This document shows positions 5,071-55,118 of a stretch of 55,118 bases of DNA, one piece after another (the first letter of the stretch is position 1; the number at the start of each line of letters is the position of its first letter). Source of the DNA: a virus. The DNA is taken from positions 1-55,118 of the IMG/VR virus record IMGVR_UViG_3300018080_000025; one strand, 5' to 3'. Both the position numbers and the translations under genes were made by a program. The notes beneath the pieces are model-generated. The model was not told the DNA's origin, searched no databases, and worked only from the letters and a program-made list of their open reading frames with translations.

Positions 5071-5939
5071 CGTTCCAATGGTGGAGTGCCACAGATGACA
5101 CCTTGGAGATTGGTGCGAGGTTTGAATGTCCTGTCAACGACACCTACGGCGCACCCCTTCAGCTCTCGGTCGGCGTCGCTTCCGGCCGGGGGCTTGCATC
5201 ATCCTTCTGCGGCGCTTTGTCGCCGGCGAGAGTCGGCGGCAAGGCTTGGCCGGGCGCGCGGATCGGCCGCGCAAGTTGATCCGTGCGTTCCGGCCTCTGT
5301 ATGGGCTAAGCCGTGAGTGCCTGCTGTCCGGGTAGCAGGGCAGCAAAAACCGCGGATGTGATTTCTCCCTTGCTCCCGCGTCGGTGAGACTCCGGCGCGG
5401 GGGAATTGGCGCGGTCTTCCCACACACGCGCGAACTCGCAGCGGATTCGGGAGTGCAGCCCCCATAACCCGGTTGCAATGGGGGCCGTAGCCAGGAGCCA
5501 GCCTAGAGGCGCTGAAGACCGGGATGAAGCTGCGGGGCTGTCGGCGTAGGGCTCATGCGACTGTGATCGCGGCCTGACGATCGTCGGCAGTGAGTAGGAC
5601 CAGCGCCGGGTGATCTGGCAGCCCGGCGCCACTTTTGACAACCGAATTGCGACGGTGTGTGCACCGGACGGTGCATGCGGTGCTGCGCTGCCGGCGAGAT
5701 AGGACCGTAAAAGGTGGCCGGCCGGTGGTGGGGACCCGGGTGGGGAATCCGGGACCGTCGCGAGTTTTGTGGTGTGGACGCAAGCACTGATTCTCTCCCC
5801 CTCCCGTGGGCGCGGTGCATTCCAGTCGGTTCAGCCCGCGCCGCGCCCCGGAAAGTGACGCCCGCGGTGGACCGCGGAGCTTGAGCCCGGCGCCGGGCAT
5901 GATGCCGCAAGGCGCCGGGCCGGTTTGGAGCAAGTCGGA
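4920..5939. other. Hairpin-rich stretch of about 1 kb without a convincing gene
   Basis: No frame here combines a start, ribosome site and protein-like content. Strong inverted repeats are dense: CCTGCT/AGCAGG (about 5317-5336); CCCGCGTCGG/CCGGCGCGGG (5375-5401); GCCCCCAT/ATGGGGGC (5458-5485); GCGCCGGG/CCCGGCGC (5603-5629); the palindrome TGCACCGGACGGTGCA (5660-5675); GCCCGGCGCC/GGCGCCGGGC (5885-5921). One short frame after 5070 (from D-D-T-L-E-I-G-A-R-F-E-C to about 5265) looks protein-like but lacks a start and may be a gene remnant. The stretch could be a long structured RNA, an untranslated leader of the recombination genes, or a decayed region. Confidence 0.5.
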
Positions 5940-6809
5940 ATGCCGATCACCCCATGGCAACGCAAAAAGCGAAAGGAATCACTCGGCGGGTCCGACATGG
6001 CGGCATTGTTCGGATGTGATCCCTGGAAGACTGAGTATGACGTGTGGCTGGACAAGACCTTTCGCGTCGAGGACACACCTACTACGAAAGCCATGGAGGA
6101 AGGCAGTCTGTTTGAGCCTGTTGTCCTGGACTACGCCGAACGGCTGCATGGCCCCCTACTGCGGAATCAGCGACGCTCGGCCCCGAACCTCCCACTAGCC
6201 TCGAACATTGACGCCATCGTGCGGTCAGACGGTCTTCCGGTTGAAGCAAAGACCGTGCATTTCCAGTCTCCTGTTTTCGCCGAATATGGCGACGAAGGAA
6301 CCCACCAGGTTCCCGAGCACGTCGCGGTGCAGGCTCATGCCCATATGCTCTGCCTGCGTCTTAAGGTCGAACTCTGCCTGGTTCCGGTGCTGCTGGGTGG
6401 AACGCTGCGAGAGTACACGGTGCTCCTGAATCGCGAGCTGGCCGACATGATCGCCGACAAGGCCGACCGCTGGTGGCATGACCATGTGGTGTTGGATCAG
6501 GCGCCGGATGGAGTGCCCACGCTCGGGGTTATCCGCCGATTGAAACGCATCCAGGGCAAGCTCGCCGACATACCCGCCGAAGTCGTCGCGAAGTGGCAGA
6601 AGGCCAAAGAGGCCCGGAAACAGGCCGAAGAAACTGAGGAGCAATATGAGGCCGAGATGCTGGCCGCGCTCGGGGATGCCACGGTCGGCGACTACGGCGA
6701 CCCTGAGCGGCTGCTGGTGCTCCAGAGCGTTGATATGCCCGAAGGAACAAAGAAGGCCCACACACAAATCCGGAAATACCTGAAGAAGCGAGAAGGAGCC
6801 GAACTATGA
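5940..6809 (+). CDS. YqaJ-type viral recombinase (lambda-exonuclease-like nuclease)
   Basis: A 289-residue nuclease of the PD-(D/E)XK fold that degrades one strand of double-stranded DNA ends to expose single strands for annealing. The opening S-L-G-G-S-D-M-A-A-L-F-G (about 14-25) is the YqaJ family signature. Asp91 (N-I-D-A-I) and the E-A-K at 102-104 form the metal-binding core. A helical, Lys/Glu-rich C-terminal part follows. The ATG at 5940 has GGAG nine bases upstream; a TTG at 5925 is less likely. It overlaps the next gene by ATGA, the usual exonuclease-annealing-protein pairing. Confidence 0.88.
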   Translation: MPITPWQRKKRKESLGGSDMAALFGCDPWKTEYDVWLDKTFRVEDTPTTKAMEEGSLFEPVVLDYAERLHGPLLRNQRRSAPNLPLASNIDAIVRSDGLPVEAKTVHFQSPVFAEYGDEGTHQVPEHVAVQAHAHMLCLRLKVELCLVPVLLGGTLREYTVLLNRELADMIADKADRWWHDHVVLDQAPDGVPTLGVIRRLKRIQGKLADIPAEVVAKWQKAKEARKQAEETEEQYEAEMLAALGDATVGDYGDPERLLVLQSVDMPEGTKKAHTQIRKYLKKREGAEL

Positions 6810-8101
6810 GCGACCAGACGGCGTTGGCAAAAAGGGGGCCGGGTGACAGTCCCCTCGTGCAGCGGGCAGAAGGCAGTGCGGGGCAGATCGAAGTTGCGAT
6901 GACGCGGGCTGCGCAGGAAGTCCAGGCAGCGATGGTCATGGCGCGCAGGTTCCCGCGGGATGAACGGGCAGCCTATGCGAGGATCATCAACGCCTGCAAA
7001 CGCAAATCGCTTGCCGAGCAGTCTCAGTATGCCTACCCGCGTGGCAGCTCCAAAGTTGAAGGCCCAACTATCCGGCTCGCCGAAGCGATCGCACAGAATT
7101 GGGGCAACCTGGACTCCGGCATCATCGAACTCGAGCAGCGGAACGGCGAAAGCACGATGATGGCCTACTGCTGGGACTTGGAAACGAACAATCGCCAGAC
7201 GAAGGTCTTTAATGTGCCCCATTTGCGGCGGAAAGGCGATCAGAACGTCAGGCTGCATGACCCCCGCGACATCTACGAAATGATGGCCAATCAGGGTGCC
7301 CGTCGCCTGCGGTCGTGCATCCTGGCCTGCATCCCGGGGGACATCACAGAAGCGGCCATCAATCAGTGCAACAAGACGCTGGCGGAAGGCAGCAAGGAGC
7401 CGTTGGGTGATCGCGTTCGGTCCATGGTCGCGGCCTTCGGTGAGTACAACGTCAAGCCTGGCATGATTGAGGGACGGCTGGGGCATTCACTGGATTCGGT
7501 CAGTGAGACCGAACTGATAGCCCTCCGAAAGATATACACCAGCCTCAAGGACAACATGGCTGGCGTCGGGGACTTTTTTGAGCAATCACGGGATGCGAGC
7601 AAGTCGCCAGCCCAGAACATCGTTGCCAGGGAACGAGGGAAGGGCAAGGCGGGCCAGCTACCCGAAGAATCCAAACAGCCGGAGACTGAAACACCGCAAG
7701 GCGATTTCACACCATTCCCCGAGCCCGAGGACCCGCCTGAGGCTCAACCGGCGACCGGTTCCAAGGCCGAGCCGGAGCCAGAGCCCGAGCCGGAGCCAGC
7801 CGACGAGAGCGTGCCCAACATCTCGTTCGACCAGATCGGCACCGTAGCCGTGGGATCGAAATTCGCCACGATGGCGCAAGTGGACAAGGTTGAAGAGCGG
7901 GCGATGCAGGGCAGCAACAAGGTGTACCACTGGGTCTGGCTCTTCGGCGGGGCGGCCGACAAGATCCGGGCGACCTACTGGGGATCCCTCCCTGGATGGG
8001 TGAAGCGCAACGCGACTGCCGAAATCGTCGCCAAGCGCGACAAGGACTACGGCAAGTCCATGCGCATCACCATCCTCGAATGGAACGAGGTGCAGCAATG
8101 A
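6806..8101 (+). CDS. Candidate single-strand annealing protein, partner of the YqaJ exonuclease
   Basis: A 431-residue protein. Residues about 30-270 form a folded domain with a conserved-looking core (K-V-E-G-P-T-I-R-L-A-E-A-I-A-Q-N-W-G). Then comes a Pro/Glu-rich linker with an E-P-E-P run (about 300-335), and a small C-terminal domain (about 340-431). Similar core segments occur in phage proteins encoded beside YqaJ or lambda-type exonucleases, and I infer an annealing role like RecT or Erf. Clear RecT, Erf or Rad52 motifs are not visible. Start and stop overlap both neighbours by ATGA. Confidence 0.6.
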   Translation: MSDQTALAKRGPGDSPLVQRAEGSAGQIEVAMTRAAQEVQAAMVMARRFPRDERAAYARIINACKRKSLAEQSQYAYPRGSSKVEGPTIRLAEAIAQNWGNLDSGIIELEQRNGESTMMAYCWDLETNNRQTKVFNVPHLRRKGDQNVRLHDPRDIYEMMANQGARRLRSCILACIPGDITEAAINQCNKTLAEGSKEPLGDRVRSMVAAFGEYNVKPGMIEGRLGHSLDSVSETELIALRKIYTSLKDNMAGVGDFFEQSRDASKSPAQNIVARERGKGKAGQLPEESKQPETETPQGDFTPFPEPEDPPEAQPATGSKAEPEPEPEPEPADESVPNISFDQIGTVAVGSKFATMAQVDKVEERAMQGSNKVYHWVWLFGGAADKIRATYWGSLPGWVKRNATAEIVAKRDKDYGKSMRITILEWNEVQQ

Positions 8102-8370: not shown

Positions 8371-9117
8371 ATGCCCAAGGACTCGATTAACATGCCTCGT
8401 GCGATCCTCGCGGCCCCCGACCTTACGCCCATGGCCAAAATCGTCTACGCACTCATGGCCGACGGGAGCACTTCGAGGGGCCTTTGTAGGCTCAGTTTGC
8501 GTTCTTTGGCAGCCCAGATAAGTGTCGACAAGGCCACAATCGCGCGCGCGCTCGCCGACCTTAGAAACGTCGGCCTCATTACAGCGCAACTCCATGGCAG
8601 AGGCAAACTTACGGAACATGTCGTCCGCCGCCCAACTGTCCGCAAAGCGCGGTCACCGCAAAGCGCGTACACTTCCAAACTGTCCGCAAAGCGCATACAG
8701 TCGGGAGATGTAAGTCCTGCCCCCGAAAGCACTTGCGCCGAGGAGCCCCATAGTGTCCGCAAAGCGCGTACAGTTGAGCAGCCACCCGAAGACGTTCCAG
8801 ACCAGATCATCGACCTTGCCCGGCAGTTTTTCGGCCAGCCGGCCATTGGCAGTTATCCCCTCGGGCTTTTGGGTGAGCGCATCAGCACTTACGGGGCCAA
8901 TGTCGTCGAAGTCGGCTTGAAGATCGCCATCGAGGGCAACCCCTCCCGCCGCTCCTGGGCCTATCTCGACAGCATCCTCAAAAGCGGGGCTCAGCGATTC
9001 AGGGACGAACAGGGCAAGCATCGGCCCCGCCGGCGGCCCAAGCCGAAGGCCCTTCTGGACGCCGAGGAGGAGGCCGAAGCCAAGGAATCCAGGCGGCAAC
9101 TGGAGGAGCTGTTCTGA
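8371..9117 (+). CDS. Helix-turn-helix replication-initiator-like protein
   Basis: A 248-residue protein. The N-terminal winged-helix region (about 18-75) has a clear helix-turn-helix (L-S-L-R-S-L-A-A-Q-I-S-V-D-K-A-T-I-A-R-A). A variable linker (about 85-130) is encoded by DNA holding four copies of an 11-bp repeat. The C-terminal half (about 130-248) is helical and ends in charged residues. Phage O-type initiators have this build: an N-terminal DNA-binding domain and an origin inside their own gene. It precedes an unknown gene and a RuvC-like resolvase. Initiator function is inferred; a plain regulator is the alternative. Confidence 0.7.
   Translation: MPKDSINMPRAILAAPDLTPMAKIVYALMADGSTSRGLCRLSLRSLAAQISVDKATIARALADLRNVGLITAQLHGRGKLTEHVVRRPTVRKARSPQSAYTSKLSAKRIQSGDVSPAPESTCAEEPHSVRKARTVEQPPEDVPDQIIDLARQFFGQPAIGSYPLGLLGERISTYGANVVEVGLKIAIEGNPSRRSWAYLDSILKSGAQRFRDEQGKHRPRRRPKPKALLDAEEEAEAKESRRQLEELF
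8637..8773 (+). repeat. Four iterons, candidate replication origin inside the initiator gene
   Basis: The 11-bp core CCGCAAAGCGC occurs at 8640-8650, 8656-8666, 8684-8694 and 8757-8767. Most copies extend to TGTCCGCAAAGCGCGTACA, an imperfect palindrome with TGT and ACA ends. The copies fall in all three reading frames (giving V-R-K-A-R, P-Q-S-A-Y, S-A-K-R and V-R-K-A-R), so the repeat is kept at DNA level and not for the protein. This mirrors the lambda origin inside gene O. They could also be autoregulatory operators. Confidence 0.65.
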
Positions 9118-9617
9118 TGCCGGCGATGACGTGGGACCAATATGCCGAGCAAGTCGAGCCGGTGCTTCGCGATCTGTGGCCCAAATGGGACTACAACGAC
9201 GAAATCGCGACCATCGTACATCGGAAAGTCAGCGGATACTTTCCTGAAACGGTCGTGAAAGCAATGCGTCGGCACCGGGAGGAATCGTTCGACGGATCGG
9301 CCCGGGTGCATCCGCGGCCCAACATCGGGACCGTCACGGAACTCTGTCGCAAAGCCGTCGAGGGCGAACGAAAGACATCGTGGCTGGATCGCCAGGTGCG
9401 TGAGCATCAGGAGCACTACTCCTGGTGGGCTCACAAGGGCTGGGAGTGCCCACCGGAACACGAGTTGCGGGCCATGATTCAAGAAGGCAGACAGACGCCG
9501 CTCCAACTCCACTGCCGGAAAGAAGTCGGCAAGATCGGGCGGATGCTGTTTCACCCGGGTTACAAGACGCGGCGGGACCTAGGCGCCGCTGAGGCGGAAA
9601 GCGAGGCAGCGGAATGA
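9117..9617 (+). CDS. Hypothetical replication-region protein
   Basis: A 166-residue protein rich in Trp, His and charged residues, with no recognised domain. It overlaps the initiator-like gene by TGATG and the RuvC-like gene by ATGA. A helicase loader or other initiator partner commonly sits here, but there is no sequence motif to support that. Confidence 0.6.
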   Translation: MPAMTWDQYAEQVEPVLRDLWPKWDYNDEIATIVHRKVSGYFPETVVKAMRRHREESFDGSARVHPRPNIGTVTELCRKAVEGERKTSWLDRQVREHQEHYSWWAHKGWECPPEHELRAMIQEGRQTPLQLHCRKEVGKIGRMLFHPGYKTRRDLGAAEAESEAAE

Positions 9618-10159
9618 TCGTCATCGGTATCGACCCGGGGCTGACCGGCGCCTTGGTTGCAATGGGGAGATTCGAGCCGATTGCCATCTCGATGCCCGTA
9701 ATAGGCACAGGTAAACGCGGCCGGAGGCAGGTCGATGCAAAAGGTTTGAAGGAATGGCTGGATCGTGTCGCCGTTTTCGACGACGAACCCCCGCACGTCT
9801 TCATTGAGAAGGTCTTCGCCATGGGCCGGCATTTAGACAAAAGAACGGGGCGGATGGTCGGCCAGAGCACCATGACGGCGTTCACGTTCGGCATGGGATA
9901 TGGAATAATCTTGGGCGTTGTCGAATCGCTTGGTTTCCCACACACACTCGTTTCGCCGAAGACGTGGCAAAAGGCCATGCTGCGCGATCTGGCGCACGAG
10001 GATACGAAGAAGGCATCGGTCTGGCGAGCAAACCAATTGTTTCCGCATGTGCAACTAAAACGCACGTCGCGCTCCCGCATCGACGATCACGGCATGGCGG
10101 ACGCCTTATTGATCGCTGAGTACGGCAGTCGGCAACTGAGAGGCGAGAGGGTCTTTTGA
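9614..10159 (+). CDS. RuvC-like Holliday junction resolvase
   Basis: A 181-residue RNase H-fold nuclease. It opens with the RuvC signature I-G-I-D-P-G-L-T-G (Asp7), has a second acidic residue in the F-I-E-K strand (Glu65), and ends with D-D-H-G-M-A-D-A-L (Asp157/158 and Asp163), which completes the metal site. The length is slightly above that of bacterial RuvC. It probably resolves branched replication or recombination intermediates before packaging, with the YqaJ exonuclease and annealing protein just upstream. Confidence 0.88.
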   Translation: MIVIGIDPGLTGALVAMGRFEPIAISMPVIGTGKRGRRQVDAKGLKEWLDRVAVFDDEPPHVFIEKVFAMGRHLDKRTGRMVGQSTMTAFTFGMGYGIILGVVESLGFPHTLVSPKTWQKAMLRDLAHEDTKKASVWRANQLFPHVQLKRTSRSRIDDHGMADALLIAEYGSRQLRGERVF

Positions 10160-10160
10160 T

Positions 10161-10394
10161 ATGCGGCGAGGCCCTCTGAATACCTGGCAGCTCGCCGAAG
10201 CCTGGGAGGCTGAGCATGGCGAATTACGCTGTGTGCTGTGCGGCGAGCTTCTGAAGTTGCGCGACGCCGACACGACGTGGTACAAAGGCCAACCGTTCTG
10301 CTCGGATCACGACGCCCTGCTGATTCAAGGCATGCAGGAAGCCGAAGAGGAACGCAAGCGGCAACGGCTGCCCGATCCATACTACGCGAGGTGA
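10161..10394 (+). CDS. Small Cys-containing protein
   Basis: A 77-residue protein with C-V-L-C near residue 25 and a later C-S-D-H, a possible zinc knuckle with Cys/His ligands, followed by a Glu/Arg-rich helix. It follows the resolvase gene by one base and is probably co-translated. No family is recognised. Confidence 0.6.
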   Translation: MRRGPLNTWQLAEAWEAEHGELRCVLCGELLKLRDADTTWYKGQPFCSDHDALLIQGMQEAEEERKRQRLPDPYYAR

Positions 10395-10397
10395 GTG

Positions 10398-10493
10398 ATG
10401 ATGGCCGATTGGCTTCTGTTTCTGTGGATATACGCAATGGCTTGGCTCGATCTGTTGCTCTGGCCAGTGGCGCTGATGGGAGGTGCGACGTGA
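10398..10493 (+). CDS. 31-residue membrane microprotein
   Basis: The frame starts at ATG-ATG (10398) four bases after the previous stop and ends by overlapping the GTG start of the next gene. The peptide is almost one hydrophobic, Trp/Leu-rich helix (M-A-D-W-L-L-F-L-W-I-Y-A). The tight spacing on both sides and the unusual composition support translation. It is below the usual length cut-off for gene finders. Confidence 0.45.
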   Translation: MMADWLLFLWIYAMAWLDLLLWPVALMGGAT

Positions 10494-10933
10494 ATGTGTA
10501 TGTAGCATCATCTTGGCGGAATGAACGACAACCTGCAATTGTCGCCGCACTGCGATCCGCAGGATACGAAGTCTATGACTTTCGTAATCCACAGGAGGAT
10601 GATAGGGGGTTCCACTGGTCTCAAATAGATGAAGGTTGGCGGTCATGGACAGTAAGTCAGTTCTGCGAAGGCTTATTGCACCCCTTGGCGGACGCAGGCT
10701 ACGACAAGGATATTGCCGCCCTCGAGGCCGCAGACGTTTGTGTGCTCGTTCTCCCGGCCGGGGCATCGGCGCACCTAGAAGCAGGATACCACGCCGGGCA
10801 AGGCAAGCCACTGATGATTCTCGCGACCAACGGAGAGCCAGAACTCATGTATAAGATGGCGAGTCATATCTGCGAGACGATCGACCAAATGCTTTCAGCA
10901 TTGGAAATCTGGGCCGTCGATGGGACAGTGTGA
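10490..10933 (+). CDS. Nucleoside 2-deoxyribosyltransferase-like protein
   Basis: A 147-residue protein. The start N-V-Y-V-A-S-S-W-R-N, the middle A-A-D-V-C-V-L-V-L-P-A-G-A-S-A-H, and L-E-A-G-Y-H-A-G-Q-G-K-P match the deoxyribosyltransferase/DUF4406 Rossmann-like family. The Glu of L-E-A-G-Y is the expected nucleophile. Members exchange bases on deoxynucleosides or process nucleotides, and phage copies may alter precursor pools. The GTG start at 10490 overlaps the preceding microprotein stop. Confidence 0.75.
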   Translation: MNVYVASSWRNERQPAIVAALRSAGYEVYDFRNPQEDDRGFHWSQIDEGWRSWTVSQFCEGLLHPLADAGYDKDIAALEAADVCVLVLPAGASAHLEAGYHAGQGKPLMILATNGEPELMYKMASHICETIDQMLSALEIWAVDGTV

Positions 10934-10934
10934 C

Positions 10935-11228
10935 ATGAAATGCCAACGGTGCGGAGCTTGTTGCCGCACGCTACTCGTCGAGTGCGATTACGATGACTGC
11001 GTCCGTGAGCCGAGGCTGCTTAAGCCATCCACCAATCCGCACGGCCTATCGCTGGCGGATTTAGAAGGCGGCGAGAAGTGCATCAAGCTCTGGCGCTGTC
11101 GTTTTCTTGGCCCAGACAACCTGTGCACGATCTACGCAACGCGACCGCAGGAATGCCGCGATTTTGAGCCTGGCAACCCGAAATGCCTAGAAGCCCGCGA
11201 AGAATGCCACACGGGAGATATGCCATGA
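10935..11228 (+). CDS. YkgJ-family cysteine-cluster protein
   Basis: A 97-residue protein that begins [11 protein letters not shown], the CxxCxxCC cluster of the YkgJ family. Further Cys residues occur at L-W-R-C, D-N-L-C-T-I-Y and the R-P-x-x-C-R-D-F block typical of that family. Members are thought to bind zinc or an iron-sulfur cluster; their function is unknown. It ends in an ATGA overlap with the pentapeptide-repeat gene. Confidence 0.85.
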
Positions 11229-11809
11229 CACCCGACGAACTAAAAACCGTGCTCGCAGAACATGGAAAGTGGCTGCGCGGTGATGGTGGAAAACAGGCGG
11301 ATCTCCGCAGGGCGTATCTCCACGGGGCGGATCTCAGCGGGGCGAATCTCCGCGGGGCGAATCTCATCGAGGCGTATCTCAGCGGGGCGGATCTCATCGA
11401 GGCGAATCTCATCGGGGCGAATCTCAGCGGGGCGAATCTCAGCGGGGCGAATCTCAGCGGGGCGGATCTCCGCGGGGCGAATCTCAGCGGGGCGAATCTC
11501 AGCGGGGCGGATCTCCGCGGGGCGGATCTCAGCGGGGCGTATCTCAGCAGGGCGGATCTCAGCAGGGCCACGCTTAACTGGGACTCCCACGATCTGCTGG
11601 CTGAGATACTGCGACAGGCGGCCGGCGACGATATAGCCAAGCGCAAGCTGGCCGGACTCGTGCTGGTGGGTCGCGATTGGTGCTGGGACGATTTTCTCGC
11701 GTTAGATGATCCGCTGCGTGATTGGGCGCTTGATACGCTGGCGGTATACGCGACACCTGATGACGACGCGCCGGACGAAATACAGAAGCGAGCGGGAGGT
11801 GCGACGTGA
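11225..11809 (+). CDS. Pentapeptide-repeat protein
   Basis: A 194-residue protein. After a 24-residue lead, 19 consecutive pentapeptides of the A-(D/N/Y)-L-x-x type run from about residue 25 to 119. They form a right-handed quadrilateral beta-helix in this family. The remaining 75 residues are a helical C-terminal domain. Some family members mimic DNA and shield DNA gyrase, but many have no known role. The repeats are nearly identical in DNA, which suggests recent expansion. It is coupled by ATGA to both neighbours. Confidence 0.9.
11297..11581 (+). repeat. 15-bp tandem repeats encoding the pentapeptides
   Basis: Nineteen 15-bp units of the form GCGAATCTCAGCGGG run in frame. Many units differ by one or two bases, and several are identical. 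Because the unit length is a multiple of three, gain or loss of units keeps the frame. All frames on the opposite strand stay open through the block, which creates false repeat-rich open frames. Confidence 0.9.
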
Positions 11810-17363: not shown

Positions 17364-17575
17364 CTTACGACGAAGCCAAAGACGTAACGATGCCGTTCGG
17401 AAAGTACAAGGGGAAGACGTTGGCCGAAATCGCCGAGGCCGACGTGATGTACCTGGATTGGTTGAACGACGGGAAGCTCTACGGGAAGCTGAAGCCCGCG
17501 GTTGAAGCGGCCTGCGAGCAATTCGCCCACGAGATCGAGGCGAAGATGGCGGAGCGGGAAGGGGATCATAGCTAA
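17360..17575 (+). CDS. DUF3820/exonuclease X C-terminal-like small protein
   Basis: A 71-residue protein. M-P-F-G-K-Y-K-G-K-T-L-A-E-I-A followed by Y-L-D-W-L is the hallmark of a small domain found in DUF3820 proteins and at the end of exodeoxyribonuclease X, where it is thought to bind DNA. Here it stands alone. GGAG precedes the ATG. It is the last gene of the rightward early operon, and its stop overlaps the stop of the convergent integrase. Confidence 0.75.
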   Translation: MTYDEAKDVTMPFGKYKGKTLAEIAEADVMYLDWLNDGKLYGKLKPAVEAACEQFAHEIEAKMAEREGDHS

Positions 17576-17593
17576 CCGACCGCTGGCCCCTTC
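17558..17593. terminator. Candidate bidirectional terminator at the convergent junction
   Basis: GAAGGGG (17558-17564) pairs with CCCCTTC (17587-17593) across the overlapping stop codons of the two convergent operons. The loop is 22 bases and T tracts are weak, so efficiency is uncertain. Confidence 0.35.
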
Positions 17594-18552
17594 AATTTCC
17601 TGGCCGCCTCCTTGGCCCGCCTGGATCGGATCTGGGCGTATATCTGGGTTGTGGTGATGCGGGAATGGCCCAAAAGCTCCTGAAGCACCTCCAGCGATCC
17701 TGGCTTTCCGTCGTCGCCGTGGTCCAAGTAGTGCTGCGCAAACGTATGTCTGAGCGAGTAGACAGACCTAAGCCCGGCCCGGTAGCAGATCGCGTGCAGG
17801 CCATCCTTGCTATAGGGTTTGCCCAAGCGGCTGGGGAATACCCACTTGCCGCCTCGTTTCCGGCGTTGTCCGCGAAGGATCTCAGCAGCGTCTGGCGGGA
17901 GGTAGATCGTGCGGGATTTTCCATGGGCGGATGTCTTGTGCTTCTGCTTTGTGATGATGCCGGCCCGCAGATCCACTTCCGACCATTCCAGAAGCCGCGC
18001 CTCCGACGGCCGGCACCCCGTAGCCAGGATGAAGCGCAACAGCGGCTTGGCGCGTCCACGAATCCGTGAAAAGGCGGCCCGGATTTTGCTCAGCGATTCG
18101 TCCCGCCGCCCGGCCGTGGGCGGCGCGGACTTGATTCGTCGAGGCAACTGCCGGATCCAACCTTGCTCGTGCCCCCACCTCCAAGCGCGAGCCGCCGCCC
18201 CGACATACCGACGTACCGTCCACGGGCTCAGTCCTGCCGCCTCGAGTCTTTCGGCAAGCCCTTGGAGGTCGGCCGGAGCCAATTCGGAAAGCAAGCGCGG
18301 ACCAGACGCCGAAACCCAGTGGTGCAGATTCCCCAAATCGGACGGATGGAGATCGGTCCAGGCGTTAACAAGCCCAGCCACAGAAATTGGTTTCGGCCGC
18401 TGCCTCCCGCCGGCTTCCAACAACTCGTCGGCCCGGCGGTAAGCTTCGGCCGCATCCGTACCAAGATAGTGCTGTTTGCGGTTCAGCTTCAGCGTGTACC
18501 ACGGTTTCCGCCCGCGGCGCCGATGACGCTGTACCGAAGGATGCCAGCCCAT
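17572..18552 (-). CDS. int: Tyrosine recombinase, phage integrase
   Basis: A 326-residue integrase that would insert the phage at attB through a covalent Tyr-DNA link. After a basic N-terminal part and a SAM-like core-binding domain (about 55-145), the catalytic domain shows Arg in A-T-G-C-R-P-S-E-A, Lys in K-H-K, S-L-R-H-T-F-A, L-L-G-H-S and the nucleophile in T-Q-I-Y-A. The first His of the usual HxLRH box is Tyr (V-Y-S-L-R-H). I chose ATG 18552; a start at 18624 would translate two arm-type repeats as protein. attP lies directly upstream. Confidence 0.92.
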   Translation of the reverse strand: MGWHPSVQRHRRRGRKPWYTLKLNRKQHYLGTDAAEAYRRADELLEAGGRQRPKPISVAGLVNAWTDLHPSDLGNLHHWVSASGPRLLSELAPADLQGLAERLEAAGLSPWTVRRYVGAAARAWRWGHEQGWIRQLPRRIKSAPPTAGRRDESLSKIRAAFSRIRGRAKPLLRFILATGCRPSEARLLEWSEVDLRAGIITKQKHKTSAHGKSRTIYLPPDAAEILRGQRRKRGGKWVFPSRLGKPYSKDGLHAICYRAGLRSVYSLRHTFAQHYLDHGDDGKPGSLEVLQELLGHSRITTTQIYAQIRSRRAKEAARKLKGPAVG

Positions 18553-18564
18553 GTGTAAATCGCC

Positions 18565-18823
18565 CAAGGGGGAGCGCGAATGCTCAAGGGGGAGCGCTTG
18601 GACGCCCCCGCCTGTTGGCATCATGCCCGGAAGTCGCGTGATTTCAAGCCCTTAGCGACTGGGCGATGACGGGCTCGAACCGCCGACCTCCTCCTTGTAA
18701 GGGAGGAATCCTTGCCTTGGCGCAAAAGCAACCGGGCATTGACGAAACAAAGACTGGATGCGCTCCCCCTTGCCCCTCAAACGACACCGAAAAACATTGG
18801 GGTTTTGACCCAAGGGGGAGCGC
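18565..18823. other. attP: attP region with arm-type repeats
   Basis: Four copies of CAAGGGGGAGCGC flank the tRNA-like core: direct at 18565-18577 and 18585-18597 (20 bp apart, about two helical turns), inverted at 18760-18772, and direct at 18811-18823. Paired arm-type sites around a core are the standard plan of lambda-class attP, where the integrase N-terminus binds arms and the catalytic part binds the core. The last copy touches the end of the serine recombinase gene. Confidence 0.75.
18660..18706 (-). other. attP core: 3' half of a tRNA-Val(UAC) gene
   Basis: Read on the minus strand, these 47 bases give the anticodon arm CCTCC-CTTACAA-GGAGG (anticodon UAC), a 5-base variable region, the T arm GGCGG-TTCGAGC-CCGTC, and an acceptor strand ATCGCCC plus A. 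The 5' half of a tRNA is absent, so it is not a functional tRNA gene. Phages integrating in tRNA genes carry this 3' segment so that the host gene is rebuilt after insertion. The crossover is probably at the anticodon loop end. Confidence 0.85.
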
Positions 18824-19650
18824 TAGAGCCGTGCGAGGATATCCTGCCAGTGCTGGCGGACGTAGGAGGCGCCACCTAGGTCGCGTAGCCTGCGCCGAAC
18901 CGTCGAACGATCCACGCCGGCAGCACGGGCGGCCTCTATCACACCGAGGTCATGCTGGCCGACGAGACGCACGAGCTTGGCTAGCGAGACTTTGTAGTGG
19001 CCGCTGCCCCGACCTCCCCAGCCGCAAGGCGGGTCGGGCGGTTCCTCTCCGTTTTTCTCGGCCTTGGCCACACGCTTCTTGTGCAAGGTCAGGGTCCGCC
19101 GGACGTAGGATTCGCTCGTGTTCATTAGGGTTGCCAGGGCGGATATGCTTTCACCTTGTTCCCGTCTCCTGATGATTTCCTTAGCCTTTGCTTTGGCCGC
19201 TTCGATACCGGCCTGCTGGGCGGACAGTATACGTTCCCGATGCGCCTCTGCAAAAGCCAAGTGCATCGCGACCATCACCTTGAGAATGGCTTGCCCCATC
19301 CAATTGTGGGGATTGACCTCAAGGGTGTTGTCTACAAAGATCATCTTCACCCCGGCCCGCTGCCATTTGTCGATGGCCACAAGCCCGTCAATCATGGTGC
19401 GGGCAAACCGATCGACCGAGTACATCACCACGGTATGTATCTCGCCGTGGAAGATGGCCTTTTCCAATTGGTAGATCCCAGGCCGCTGCATTTCCGATCC
19501 GGTTTCTCCCTCGTCGATGTACCAGTAATCGAGCGGGATGGTCATCCCATGACCACGTAGATACCGTTTGATCGATTCCTGTTGTGCCTTGACGTTTTGG
19601 TCGTCGGTGCTCACACGCATGTAGACGGCCGCGTGGTTATCATTTGTCAT
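18823..19650 (-). CDS. Serine recombinase (resolvase/invertase family)
   Basis: A 275-residue protein. It opens V-Y-M-R-V-S-T-D-D-Q with nucleophile Ser14, and the catalytic domain includes Y-S-V-D-R-F-A-R-T (about 80-88), as in the resolvase/invertase family. The C-terminal third has helix-turn-helix segments (G-E-S-I-S-A-L-A-T-L-M-N-T-S and A-A-R-A-A-G-V-D-R-S-T-V). It is smaller than large phage serine integrases and could be an invertase, a resolvase or a second integrase. It shares the attP flank with the tyrosine integrase and overlaps the upstream gene by ATGA. Confidence 0.88.
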   Translation of the reverse strand: MTNDNHAAVYMRVSTDDQNVKAQQESIKRYLRGHGMTIPLDYWYIDEGETGSEMQRPGIYQLEKAIFHGEIHTVVMYSVDRFARTMIDGLVAIDKWQRAGVKMIFVDNTLEVNPHNWMGQAILKVMVAMHLAFAEAHRERILSAQQAGIEAAKAKAKEIIRRREQGESISALATLMNTSESYVRRTLTLHKKRVAKAEKNGEEPPDPPCGWGGRGSGHYKVSLAKLVRLVGQHDLGVIEAARAAGVDRSTVRRRLRDLGGASYVRQHWQDILARL

Positions 19651-29884: not shown

Positions 29885-31915
29885 ATGATGCTGAGCCGAC
29901 GACAGAGCGCCGACCTCGACCTGCCGCACCTGGCGGCGTGGCTTCCGGAGGAATACTTCGATATGCCGGAAGATCAGCGGCGCATTGCCGAGCGCGCAGC
30001 CACGCTTCAGGCGGCCCACCTGCCCCCCGATTACGACGGCCTGGATGAAGAGGCCCGGCTCGAGGCCCGAAAGTCGGTCCTGTCGTCATGGTTCGACCCG
30101 GATCGGATTAACGTCCTCTGCACGGACGTAGAGAATCTGATTGCGGCGCACTTCCTTTGGGTCGAGTTCTACCTGAAGCCGGACGCCTACAGCGGGGGTG
30201 ACTATTTCTTCCGGGACCCGATCACGAAGTACGACCTTGTTCGGGCGGCGATGTCGCCACCGAAACTGGAGGGTCATCCCGCAAAGACGGTCATCCACTG
30301 CCCAAGGCACACAACCAAGACGAAGACCCTCATTCACGAAATGTGTTCGATGATGGTCGTGATGCGCCCGCACACCAAGATCCTCGTGAGCGAGGTGAAC
30401 AAGGATCGGAGCACGGAGGAGCTTCAGGCAATCCGCTTCACGCTCCAGAACAATGAACTGATCGCCCGCGACTTCGGCGGACTCGGGACACTTTACTGCA
30501 CGAGCTACAAATCCGGGATGAAGTGGAACGATTCGCGCCTGGACATCGCCCTCCATCCCCACACGTCGATCATGGCATTCAGCACGAAATCGAAGCAGCG
30601 TGGGCGTCACCCCATTCTGGGCATCATCGACGACCCGGAGGATGACGAGACCGCGCAGGATCAGACCTTCAGGCGGAAGTTCTTCACCAACCTGTTCCGC
30701 CGCTACATGGGCATGTTCTACCCAGGCGCCCACATCATCTGGATCGGGACGGTGATGCGGGCATCCTGTCTGCAAATCGCCCTGGCCGACCTGATCGACG
30801 TGGACCCCGACAGCCGCAGCGACGTGGAAGAGTACGACGCGCGTTTCAAGGACTGGAACAAGGTCCACTTCCCCATGATCGAGCGCGACCCGGCGACGGG
30901 CGAGCGTTACAGCATCATGCAGGACCAGACCTCGGTACGAGCCTATGACGAGAAGCACGAGACGATGGGCGCGGCGGTCGTCGCCTCGGAGCTGGACGGC
31001 AAGCCGGTTGCCGAGGGCCAATTCGCACTTGTCCGTGATCCGGTTTGGCACGGCTACATGCACTGCCGGCGCATGGATAATGCGCCCGGTCTGCCGGAAG
31101 AATACCTGCTGGATCTCTGCAACGGGCAGATCATGGAATGGCGACAGTGGTTGACGACGGTGCAGGTCGTTGCAGGTTGCGACATCGCGGATTCGACGGC
31201 CATTGACGCTGATTTCGGCGCCAACGCGCTGGTGGGAATCGACCCTTACGGGACGGTCTTCGTCCTCGACATCTACGTCAAGCGCATGATCGCCGACGAT
31301 TGGCCGGAGAAAGCGCTGGGCATGGCATTCGAGTGGGGCGCGGTCCGCCAGGCATTCGATACCGCGGCCATGCAAAAGGTCGTGTTCCGTATGGCCGAAC
31401 GGCTTCGGATGTTGGCAGAGGAACGCGGCCATTCGCCACCAACACTCGTCGCCCTCGGGAACACGGCCCAGCGCAACAAGCATTTGAAGATTTTGAGTTC
31501 ACTCCGGCCACTCCACCGCAAGGAATTGATCCGCTATCCCTTCTTCAAGTCGATTCGCACGGATGATGGAAGGACGCACCATCCCTTCCCGCATTCCCAC
31601 GAGGGCAGTTTCCGGGAACTGTACCGGGAGATCGACACGTATACGGACGAGGGGGCCAGCGGACACGACGACGCGATCGACGCGCTCCAGATGGCGATCC
31701 ATATCGGGGCGAGGCTGAGGGGCGAGCCCCTGAAAGAGTACGACGAGAACGAGGCGGAACTGAAGAAGTGGGAAGAGGCCGGCGTGGACTGGCGCGCGCG
31801 GCGCCATCTGATCCCCTATGAGGCGTGGACGGACGATATGAAAGCTGACGCGGATTCGGATGATCCGGAGCTGGTCGGCGTTGCCGACGAGGTGGACCCG
31901 TATGCCTTTTGCTGA
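29885..31915 (+). CDS. terL: Terminase large subunit
   Basis: A 676-residue DNA-packaging motor ATPase and nuclease. The ATPase part has a deviant Walker A (C-P-R-H-T-T-K-T-K-T, about 139-148) and Walker B with paired acids (L-G-I-I-D-D-P-E-D-D-E, about 245-255). The C-terminal RNase H-fold nuclease shows A-G-C-D-I-A-D-S (about 430) and H-D-D-A-I-D-A-L (about 595). Length and gene order (before portal) are typical. An ATG at 29888 is an equal alternative start. It cuts and pumps concatemeric DNA into proheads. Confidence 0.92.
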   Translation: MMLSRRQSADLDLPHLAAWLPEEYFDMPEDQRRIAERAATLQAAHLPPDYDGLDEEARLEARKSVLSSWFDPDRINVLCTDVENLIAAHFLWVEFYLKPDAYSGGDYFFRDPITKYDLVRAAMSPPKLEGHPAKTVIHCPRHTTKTKTLIHEMCSMMVVMRPHTKILVSEVNKDRSTEELQAIRFTLQNNELIARDFGGLGTLYCTSYKSGMKWNDSRLDIALHPHTSIMAFSTKSKQRGRHPILGIIDDPEDDETAQDQTFRRKFFTNLFRRYMGMFYPGAHIIWIGTVMRASCLQIALADLIDVDPDSRSDVEEYDARFKDWNKVHFPMIERDPATGERYSIMQDQTSVRAYDEKHETMGAAVVASELDGKPVAEGQFALVRDPVWHGYMHCRRMDNAPGLPEEYLLDLCNGQIMEWRQWLTTVQVVAGCDIADSTAIDADFGANALVGIDPYGTVFVLDIYVKRMIADDWPEKALGMAFEWGAVRQAFDTAAMQKVVFRMAERLRMLAEERGHSPPTLVALGNTAQRNKHLKILSSLRPLHRKELIRYPFFKSIRTDDGRTHHPFPHSHEGSFRELYREIDTYTDEGASGHDDAIDALQMAIHIGARLRGEPLKEYDENEAELKKWEEAGVDWRARRHLIPYEAWTDDMKADADSDDPELVGVADEVDPYAFC

Positions 31916-53863: not shown

Positions 53864-55084
53864 ATGGGTATCTTGCGCTCAAGTGAAATCGTAGACCGGA
53901 TTCCCGTGAATCCCGGGGACCGCTTGATCAGTATGCCCGCGTCGTCCAAGGGGAACACGGTGGCAGTGTCGAGCTATGACACCGGCGATGTGGGCCAGCT
54001 CTTTTCGCGGAATGGTGTGCGCACATTTCTCTTTGGTGGCCACACGCAACGCCTGAGGGCGTCCGGTTCGATCACCTCAATCACGATCTGGACGAACACG
54101 CTGACAAACATCACCTCGGTTGTCCTGCGTGTAATGAGGCGGAACACGGTAGATGATAATTGGGATCAGGTCCCAGTTGATTCAGCGAACATCCTCGGCT
54201 CGTTGACCGGTGGCGGCGCATGGGACACGATCCCCGTCGGCACGCTTTGGCCAGGCGGGAGTCCGGCTTGCCGGGCGGGGGATTGCATCGCGGTTGCCAT
54301 CACAGCCACCGACGCGGACGCCTGGATGAACTGCGCGCAGAATCTCGACGCCGAAGACCGCGACGTCCTGTACCACAACGGCGATATTGCCGGGGCCGAC
54401 CAGACATTCGGACTCCAAATGGGGACAGGAGGGTATAGCGCCTATTGCTACGTGAACATGGATTCTCCGATCCTGATGTTCGGAGGCGACAGTTTTATGG
54501 CCGGGGCGGCGGACTGCACCAGCCCGATCGAGGCGCTGGGGGACGGGCTGGACTGGAAGGATGTGGAGTTCGATGTGCCGACGTCGTATCACCTATCGCA
54601 GATTGATTCGACACTGTTCGGCAGTTACATGAACCACGCCGTTCGCGGTTCCACATCGACGACCTGGGCCAATGCGGCGAATTTCGCAACTTACGTCAGT
54701 GACTACACGCCCCGGGCTTGTGTGTTCTCGCTCGGCTACAACGATGTCATGGATAGTGCCTCATGGGCCACGTTCATCGGTAACATCGCGACGATCGTTC
54801 AGCGCTGTGCTCTGAATGAAATCGTGCCGATCTTCATAACCATCCTCCAGGCCCAATCGGGCACGGCCGCCCAACAGGCGACCATCGCCGAATGGAACCG
54901 TGGCCTGACAAGGTGGTGCGCCGAGCGCGGAATCCTGTGCCTGGACGCCTATTCAATCCTGGCACTCCAGGGCGCACCGGCAGGAAGAAACACGACGCTG
55001 TTCGGAAGTGAAACACATCCCAACAGCGCTGGTTACAAAGCCATCGCGACGGCGCTGGCAACACGAATCCAATCGCTGCAATGA
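53864..55084 (+). CDS. Tail protein with SGNH hydrolase (esterase) domain
   Basis: A 406-residue protein with AAGGAG before the ATG. Residues about 1-200 are a beta-rich virion-type domain. From about 200 comes an SGNH/GDSL fold: M-F-G-G-D-S-F (Ser210 nucleophile), R-G-S-T, G-Y-N-D (Asn293) and E-T-H-P-N-S-A-G-Y (His385). The usual Asp three residues before His is Ser382, with Glu383 next to it. Such domains in tail proteins deacetylate host surface sugars. The gene's end is repeated at the left edge of the window. Confidence 0.8.
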   Translation: MGILRSSEIVDRIPVNPGDRLISMPASSKGNTVAVSSYDTGDVGQLFSRNGVRTFLFGGHTQRLRASGSITSITIWTNTLTNITSVVLRVMRRNTVDDNWDQVPVDSANILGSLTGGGAWDTIPVGTLWPGGSPACRAGDCIAVAITATDADAWMNCAQNLDAEDRDVLYHNGDIAGADQTFGLQMGTGGYSAYCYVNMDSPILMFGGDSFMAGAADCTSPIEALGDGLDWKDVEFDVPTSYHLSQIDSTLFGSYMNHAVRGSTSTTWANAANFATYVSDYTPRACVFSLGYNDVMDSASWATFIGNIATIVQRCALNEIVPIFITILQAQSGTAAQQATIAEWNRGLTRWCAERGILCLDAYSILALQGAPAGRNTTLFGSETHPNSAGYKAIATALATRIQSLQ

Positions 55085-55118
55085 GGTGTTTGTATGTACC
55101 GCTCGGCAGCCCTCATTC
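54996..55118. repeat. Terminal direct repeat, right copy
   Basis: This copy is identical to positions 1-123. It contains the end of the SGNH gene and, from 55094, the first codons of the holin-like gene whose full copy is at 99-368. Joining the two ends gives a continuous late operon across the contig boundary. Confidence 0.95.

Follow-up and report, generated by a model that had tools for sequence, protein, structure and literature searches.

In bacteriophage lambda, the replication origin, with its iterons and an AT-rich tract, is found in the middle of gene O, and the related Stx phages are likewise covered by this description (PMC7466680). In phage SPP1, the origin oriL lies within gene 38, and the gene 38 product binds direct repeats that are part of its own gene (PMC6316719).

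The locus described here belongs to a GC-rich temperate phage. The window, which is the whole stretch of DNA that was analyzed (55,118 nt), begins and ends with the same bases (1-123 and 54996-55118, a 123-bp direct repeat), which suggests that the record is probably a whole genome (54,995 bp), assembled as a circle. Terminase and portal genes are present, as well as a tyrosine integrase gene (17572-18624), near which a serine recombinase/DNA invertase-like gene is observed (18823-19650, minus strand). A tblastn search of 50,697 phage records with the terminase large subunit (29885-31915) gives no match, nor does a pattern search of viral contigs, so no close sequenced relatives of the phage are found there. 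Elsewhere in the window, there is a pentapeptide-repeat protein gene with numerous in-frame 15-bp repeats (11183-11809), an unusual-looking phage gene pair encoding a DUF2201 metallopeptidase/VWA-like protein and a MoxR-like AAA ATPase (23056-26230, minus strand), and a gene for an AAA ATPase like a phage clamp loader or RuvB (21797-22432, minus strand; PHROG 5846, 7e-37), which possibly has an extra role in replication or repair.

The gene order around the locus is RecE/YqaJ exonuclease, annealing candidate, initiator, the 9117-9617 gene, and RuvC-like resolvase:

5925-6809, plus strand: RecE-like/YqaJ exonuclease gene (Pfam YqaJ 9e-14; PHROG RecE-like 6e-45)
6806-8101, plus strand: candidate gene for a single-strand annealing protein (PHROG 3657; RecT-like is the annotation of some tblastn relatives)
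8371-9117, plus strand: replication initiator gene, 248 amino acids (HTH_36; PHROG O-like and DnaD-like matches)
9117-9617, plus strand: next gene, 166 amino acids (no family match; candidate helicase loader by position only)
9614-10159, plus strand: RuvC-like Holliday junction resolvase gene (PHROG 1770, E 7e-28)

RecT-like is the annotation given in phiT45-1 to a relative of the 6806-8101 product. For the 9117-9617 product, there is no Pfam match, no convincing PHROG match, and no PDB match, and it is a candidate loader in that its gene occupies the slot of the helicase loader gene in O-type modules. No helicase gene or known loader gene was recognized among the tested ORFs of the window.

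The initiator gene starts with a helix-turn-helix domain, as the first-pass annotation of this DNA had stated: the N-terminal winged helix (residues 18-70) matches HTH_36 (PF13730) with an E value of 2.1e-6 and 27.9 bits, above the cut-off of 25. The PHROG matches of the product are to an O-like initiator (2e-8) and a DnaD-like helicase loader (2.5e-8, residues 7-205). A weak match to the DnaD-domain model TIGR01446 at residues 176-205 (E 0.048, 13.8 bits) is below its cut-off of 24.95, and PF07261 (DnaD domain) has no match in the product. A winged helix combined with a replication-protein C-terminus is predicted from these matches, weakly so for the C-terminal part. Phage_rep_O (PF04492) is not detected at E values up to 1, whereas it is matched at 3.5e-26 and 5.8e-23 by the initiators of the IMG/VR contig L124 and of Caldibacillus phage CBP1, respectively. 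In the structure model of the product, which was generated without an alignment and has low confidence (pLDDT 48), helices are followed by an unstructured linker (approximately residues 82-141) and again by helices, and all four iterons fall within this predicted linker, after the winged helix.

The core of these iterons is the 11-mer CCGCAAAGCGC, which occurs in four exact copies at 8640, 8656, 8684, and 8757, with steps of 16, 28, and 73 bp, just as had been reported for an 11-bp core in the first-pass annotation, and which is absent in exact form from the rest of the 55,118-nt window on both strands. The iteron unit is 19 bp long and has the form TGTnCGC-N5-GCGnACA:

8637-8655, plus strand: iteron 1, TGTCCGCAAAGCGCGGTCA
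8653-8671, plus strand: iteron 2, TCACCGCAAAGCGCGTACA, with 3 bp in common with iteron 1
8681-8699, plus strand: iteron 3, TGTCCGCAAAGCGCATACA
8754-8772, plus strand: iteron 4, TGTCCGCAAAGCGCGTACA

The four iterons are imperfect palindromes, as in lambda-O-type origins, the numbers of paired arm positions being 6, 4, 5, and 6 of 7 for iterons 1 to 4; approximately 2 of 7 is typical of the window, and 0.25% of its 19-mers reach 6. The palindromy that had been claimed for the extended unit is thus present, but the TGT and ACA ends that had been claimed with it are clean in iterons 3 and 4 only, because the three bases 8653-8655 (TCA) belong both to iteron 1, as its 3' end, and to iteron 2, as its 5' end, and the outer ends of the two are degraded there.

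A palindromic unit suits dimer binding, and this counts toward an origin. Palindromes with TGT and ACA ends also look like repressor operators, autoregulation is frequent among winged-helix proteins, and GntR- and MarR-type families are among the HTH matches, as would be expected if the iterons were operators for transcriptional control of the operon, acted on by its own HTH protein or by a different phage regulator, and had no part in an origin. This is unlikely, since the sites are approximately 270-400 bp into the gene and away from its promoter, most of the PHROG matches are initiators rather than regulators, and the same plan recurs in the replication initiators of other phages. The binding of the initiator to the iterons could also have a dual role, as operator and origin.

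The copies of CCGCAAAGCGC are in codon frames 2, 0, 1, and 2 of gene 8371-9117 and encode VRKAR, PQSAY, SAKRI, and VRKAR, respectively. When the gene was recoded with the protein kept constant and the codons redrawn according to the codon usage of the phage itself, the observed number of four copies was not reached by any 11-mer in 20,000 synonymous recodings; the maximum was three copies, in 5 of the 20,000. Therefore, coding constraints are no explanation for the four copies, in agreement with the earlier claim that repeats in all three frames are not due to protein selection. Amino-acid repeats or slippage duplication in a linker of low complexity, giving a coding repeat without a function as DNA, would be compatible with the predicted lack of structure in the linker (in the low-confidence model) and with the VRKAR peptide that is encoded by both iterons 1 and 4. 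Such an origin of the repeats is highly improbable when considering the three frames and the outcome of the recodings, the irregular spacing, and the palindrome arms, which are partly retained despite differing flanks. A blind scan of the 55-kb window, in which any 11-mer counted if four or more near-copies of it were present in 200 bp and in two or more frames, gives the CCGCAAAGCGC cluster and no other place. A strict multi-frame test of approximately 0.2 Mb (the window and 13 phage loci) identifies two places only, both of them initiators, and multi-frame intragenic repeats are thus usable as a homology-free signal for phage origins.

Conservation of the iterons in relatives had been proposed as a check: the exact repeat is specific to this phage, and it could not be traced in diverged relatives. 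The exact repeat, together with the initiator, recurs only in one contig, which is 100% identical over 5,251 bp. Other than the identical contig, the motif-pair patterns identify only unrelated repeats, both among viral contigs and in a bacterial and archaeal genome collection of 84,980 species, and a scan of viral contigs with a single 14-mer gives 119 stretches, none with a cluster. The search with the whole initiator protein has no match in phages, plasmids, or genome contigs. A generalized pattern, CTGT..GCAAA..ACAG, was tried for uniting this iteron with that of CBP1 and was rejected, having one unrelated match.

Initiators of other phages were reached via relatives of the neighboring annealing gene (6806-8101). 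The L124 initiator, which has Phage_rep_O and a sub-threshold DnaB_2 match, contains five palindromic repeats around AACTTCCCAAAAAGGGAAG in its linker, in frames 2, 1, 0, 2, and 1; the ORF that follows it (9773-11143) has the look of a DnaB-type helicase, as judged by eye only. Replication protein O of CBP1 (L159; Phage_rep_O) has approximately four palindromic AGTAAGCAAAAATGCTGACAG units in its linker, in all frames. In own-codon shuffles (60 per gene), the five copies of L124 and the four of the window are reached in none of 60, and the four of CBP1 in 5 of 60, and because of this the visible palindromes are a firmer basis than the count for the CBP1 case. These two phages share with ours the annealing-protein family of the neighboring gene and the palindromic three-frame iterons in the linker that follows the winged helix; they differ in the iteron sequences and in the Phage_rep_O domain. 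Gene 45 of Microbacterium phage DelaGarza is a distant HTH_36 homolog (pairwise BLASTP 2e-9, 25% over 200 residues) of similar size, also in a replication module, and its linker has the palindromic repeats GGTCAGAGGGACC and CTGTCAGAGGGACAG, although there are just two copies, both in the same frame, and a third palindrome. The gene adjoining it is annotated as helicase loader, and that product has no similarity to the 9117-9617 product. The initiators of A403 and Montmirail have no repeats beyond chance, and in that of L125 the repeats are all in one frame, without comparable multi-frame iterons. Private palindromic linker iterons are therefore frequent, but not universal, in such initiators. 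It is very improbable that the iterons are sites for another host or phage factor, for example a recombination or packaging protein; a recombination module does adjoin, but the recurrence of the linker position with sequences that differ between phages fits coevolution with the encoding protein.

Unwinding in lambda requires the AT-rich tract beside the iterons. No such tract adjoins the iterons at 8637-8772: the 60 bp after iteron 4 have 40% AT, the 54th percentile of the window, whereas AT-rich tracts follow the iterons in CBP1 (85%) and L124 (70%). The least stable 50-nt stretches beside the iterons are only at the 91st-96th percentile, and the least stable stretches of the gene, 8482-8531 and 8668-8717, are at the 96th-97th, which is mild. 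Either this modest instability is sufficient, or the DNA opens elsewhere. The GC skew, which the first-pass annotation had proposed to inspect, has no clear turning point at the iteron site, and by itself it neither supports nor refutes an origin. Against the origin reading are, then, the missing AT-rich tract, the few (four) copies of the 11-mer, the skew without a clear turn, the repeat being untraceable in diverged relatives, and the initiators of L125, A403, and Montmirail.

On balance, 8637-8772 is probably the replication origin of the phage, or the initiator-binding core, inside the initiator gene. This reading, based on sequence comparisons, follows from the repeats in all frames beyond coding expectation, from HTH_36 and the O-like/DnaD-like families in a recombination and replication gene neighborhood, and from the occurrence of the same plan with different iterons in the initiators of other phages, with lambda and SPP1 as precedents. 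The earlier proposal that the plan of the lambda origin in gene O is repeated here in an unrelated sequence is supported by these same features. We infer binding, melting, and helicase recruitment at this site as follows. The initiator would bind the four palindromes through its N-terminal winged helix, probably as dimers, and once bound would form an O-some-like complex in which nearby DNA is bent and opened. The replicative helicase of the host would then be recruited by the DnaD/O-like C-terminus, perhaps together with a loader encoded at 9117-9617, and theta replication would be the outcome. A lambda-plan origin that works without a local AT-rich tract, by opening between or upstream of the unevenly spaced iterons or by means of a new kind of loader at 9117-9617, is conceivable but rather doubtful.

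A candidate origin and its initiator are hereby supplied for an otherwise uncharacterized phage, and different winged-helix families (HTH_36 and Phage_rep_O) are seen to retain palindromic iterons of their own in the corresponding linker. In both lambda and this phage, the initiator gene belongs to an early module and has four palindromic iterons at its middle, each with a short run of A at its center (lambda iteron 1, ATCCCTCAAAACGAGGGA, versus TGTCCGCAAAGCGCGTACA here). The iteron sequence is nevertheless unrelated, HTH_36 is found here in place of a detectable Phage_rep_O, and this GC-rich phage has neither the AT-rich tract nor a recognizable P gene. SPP1 differs in having an AT-rich element for unwinding, oriR as a second origin, and a loader and helicase of its own, and the binding is proven in SPP1 and predicted here; common to both is that the repeats are inside a gene for their (here predicted) binding protein. 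The intragenic origin in an initiator gene is a known arrangement, and the iteron sequence described here is unrelated to that of lambda.
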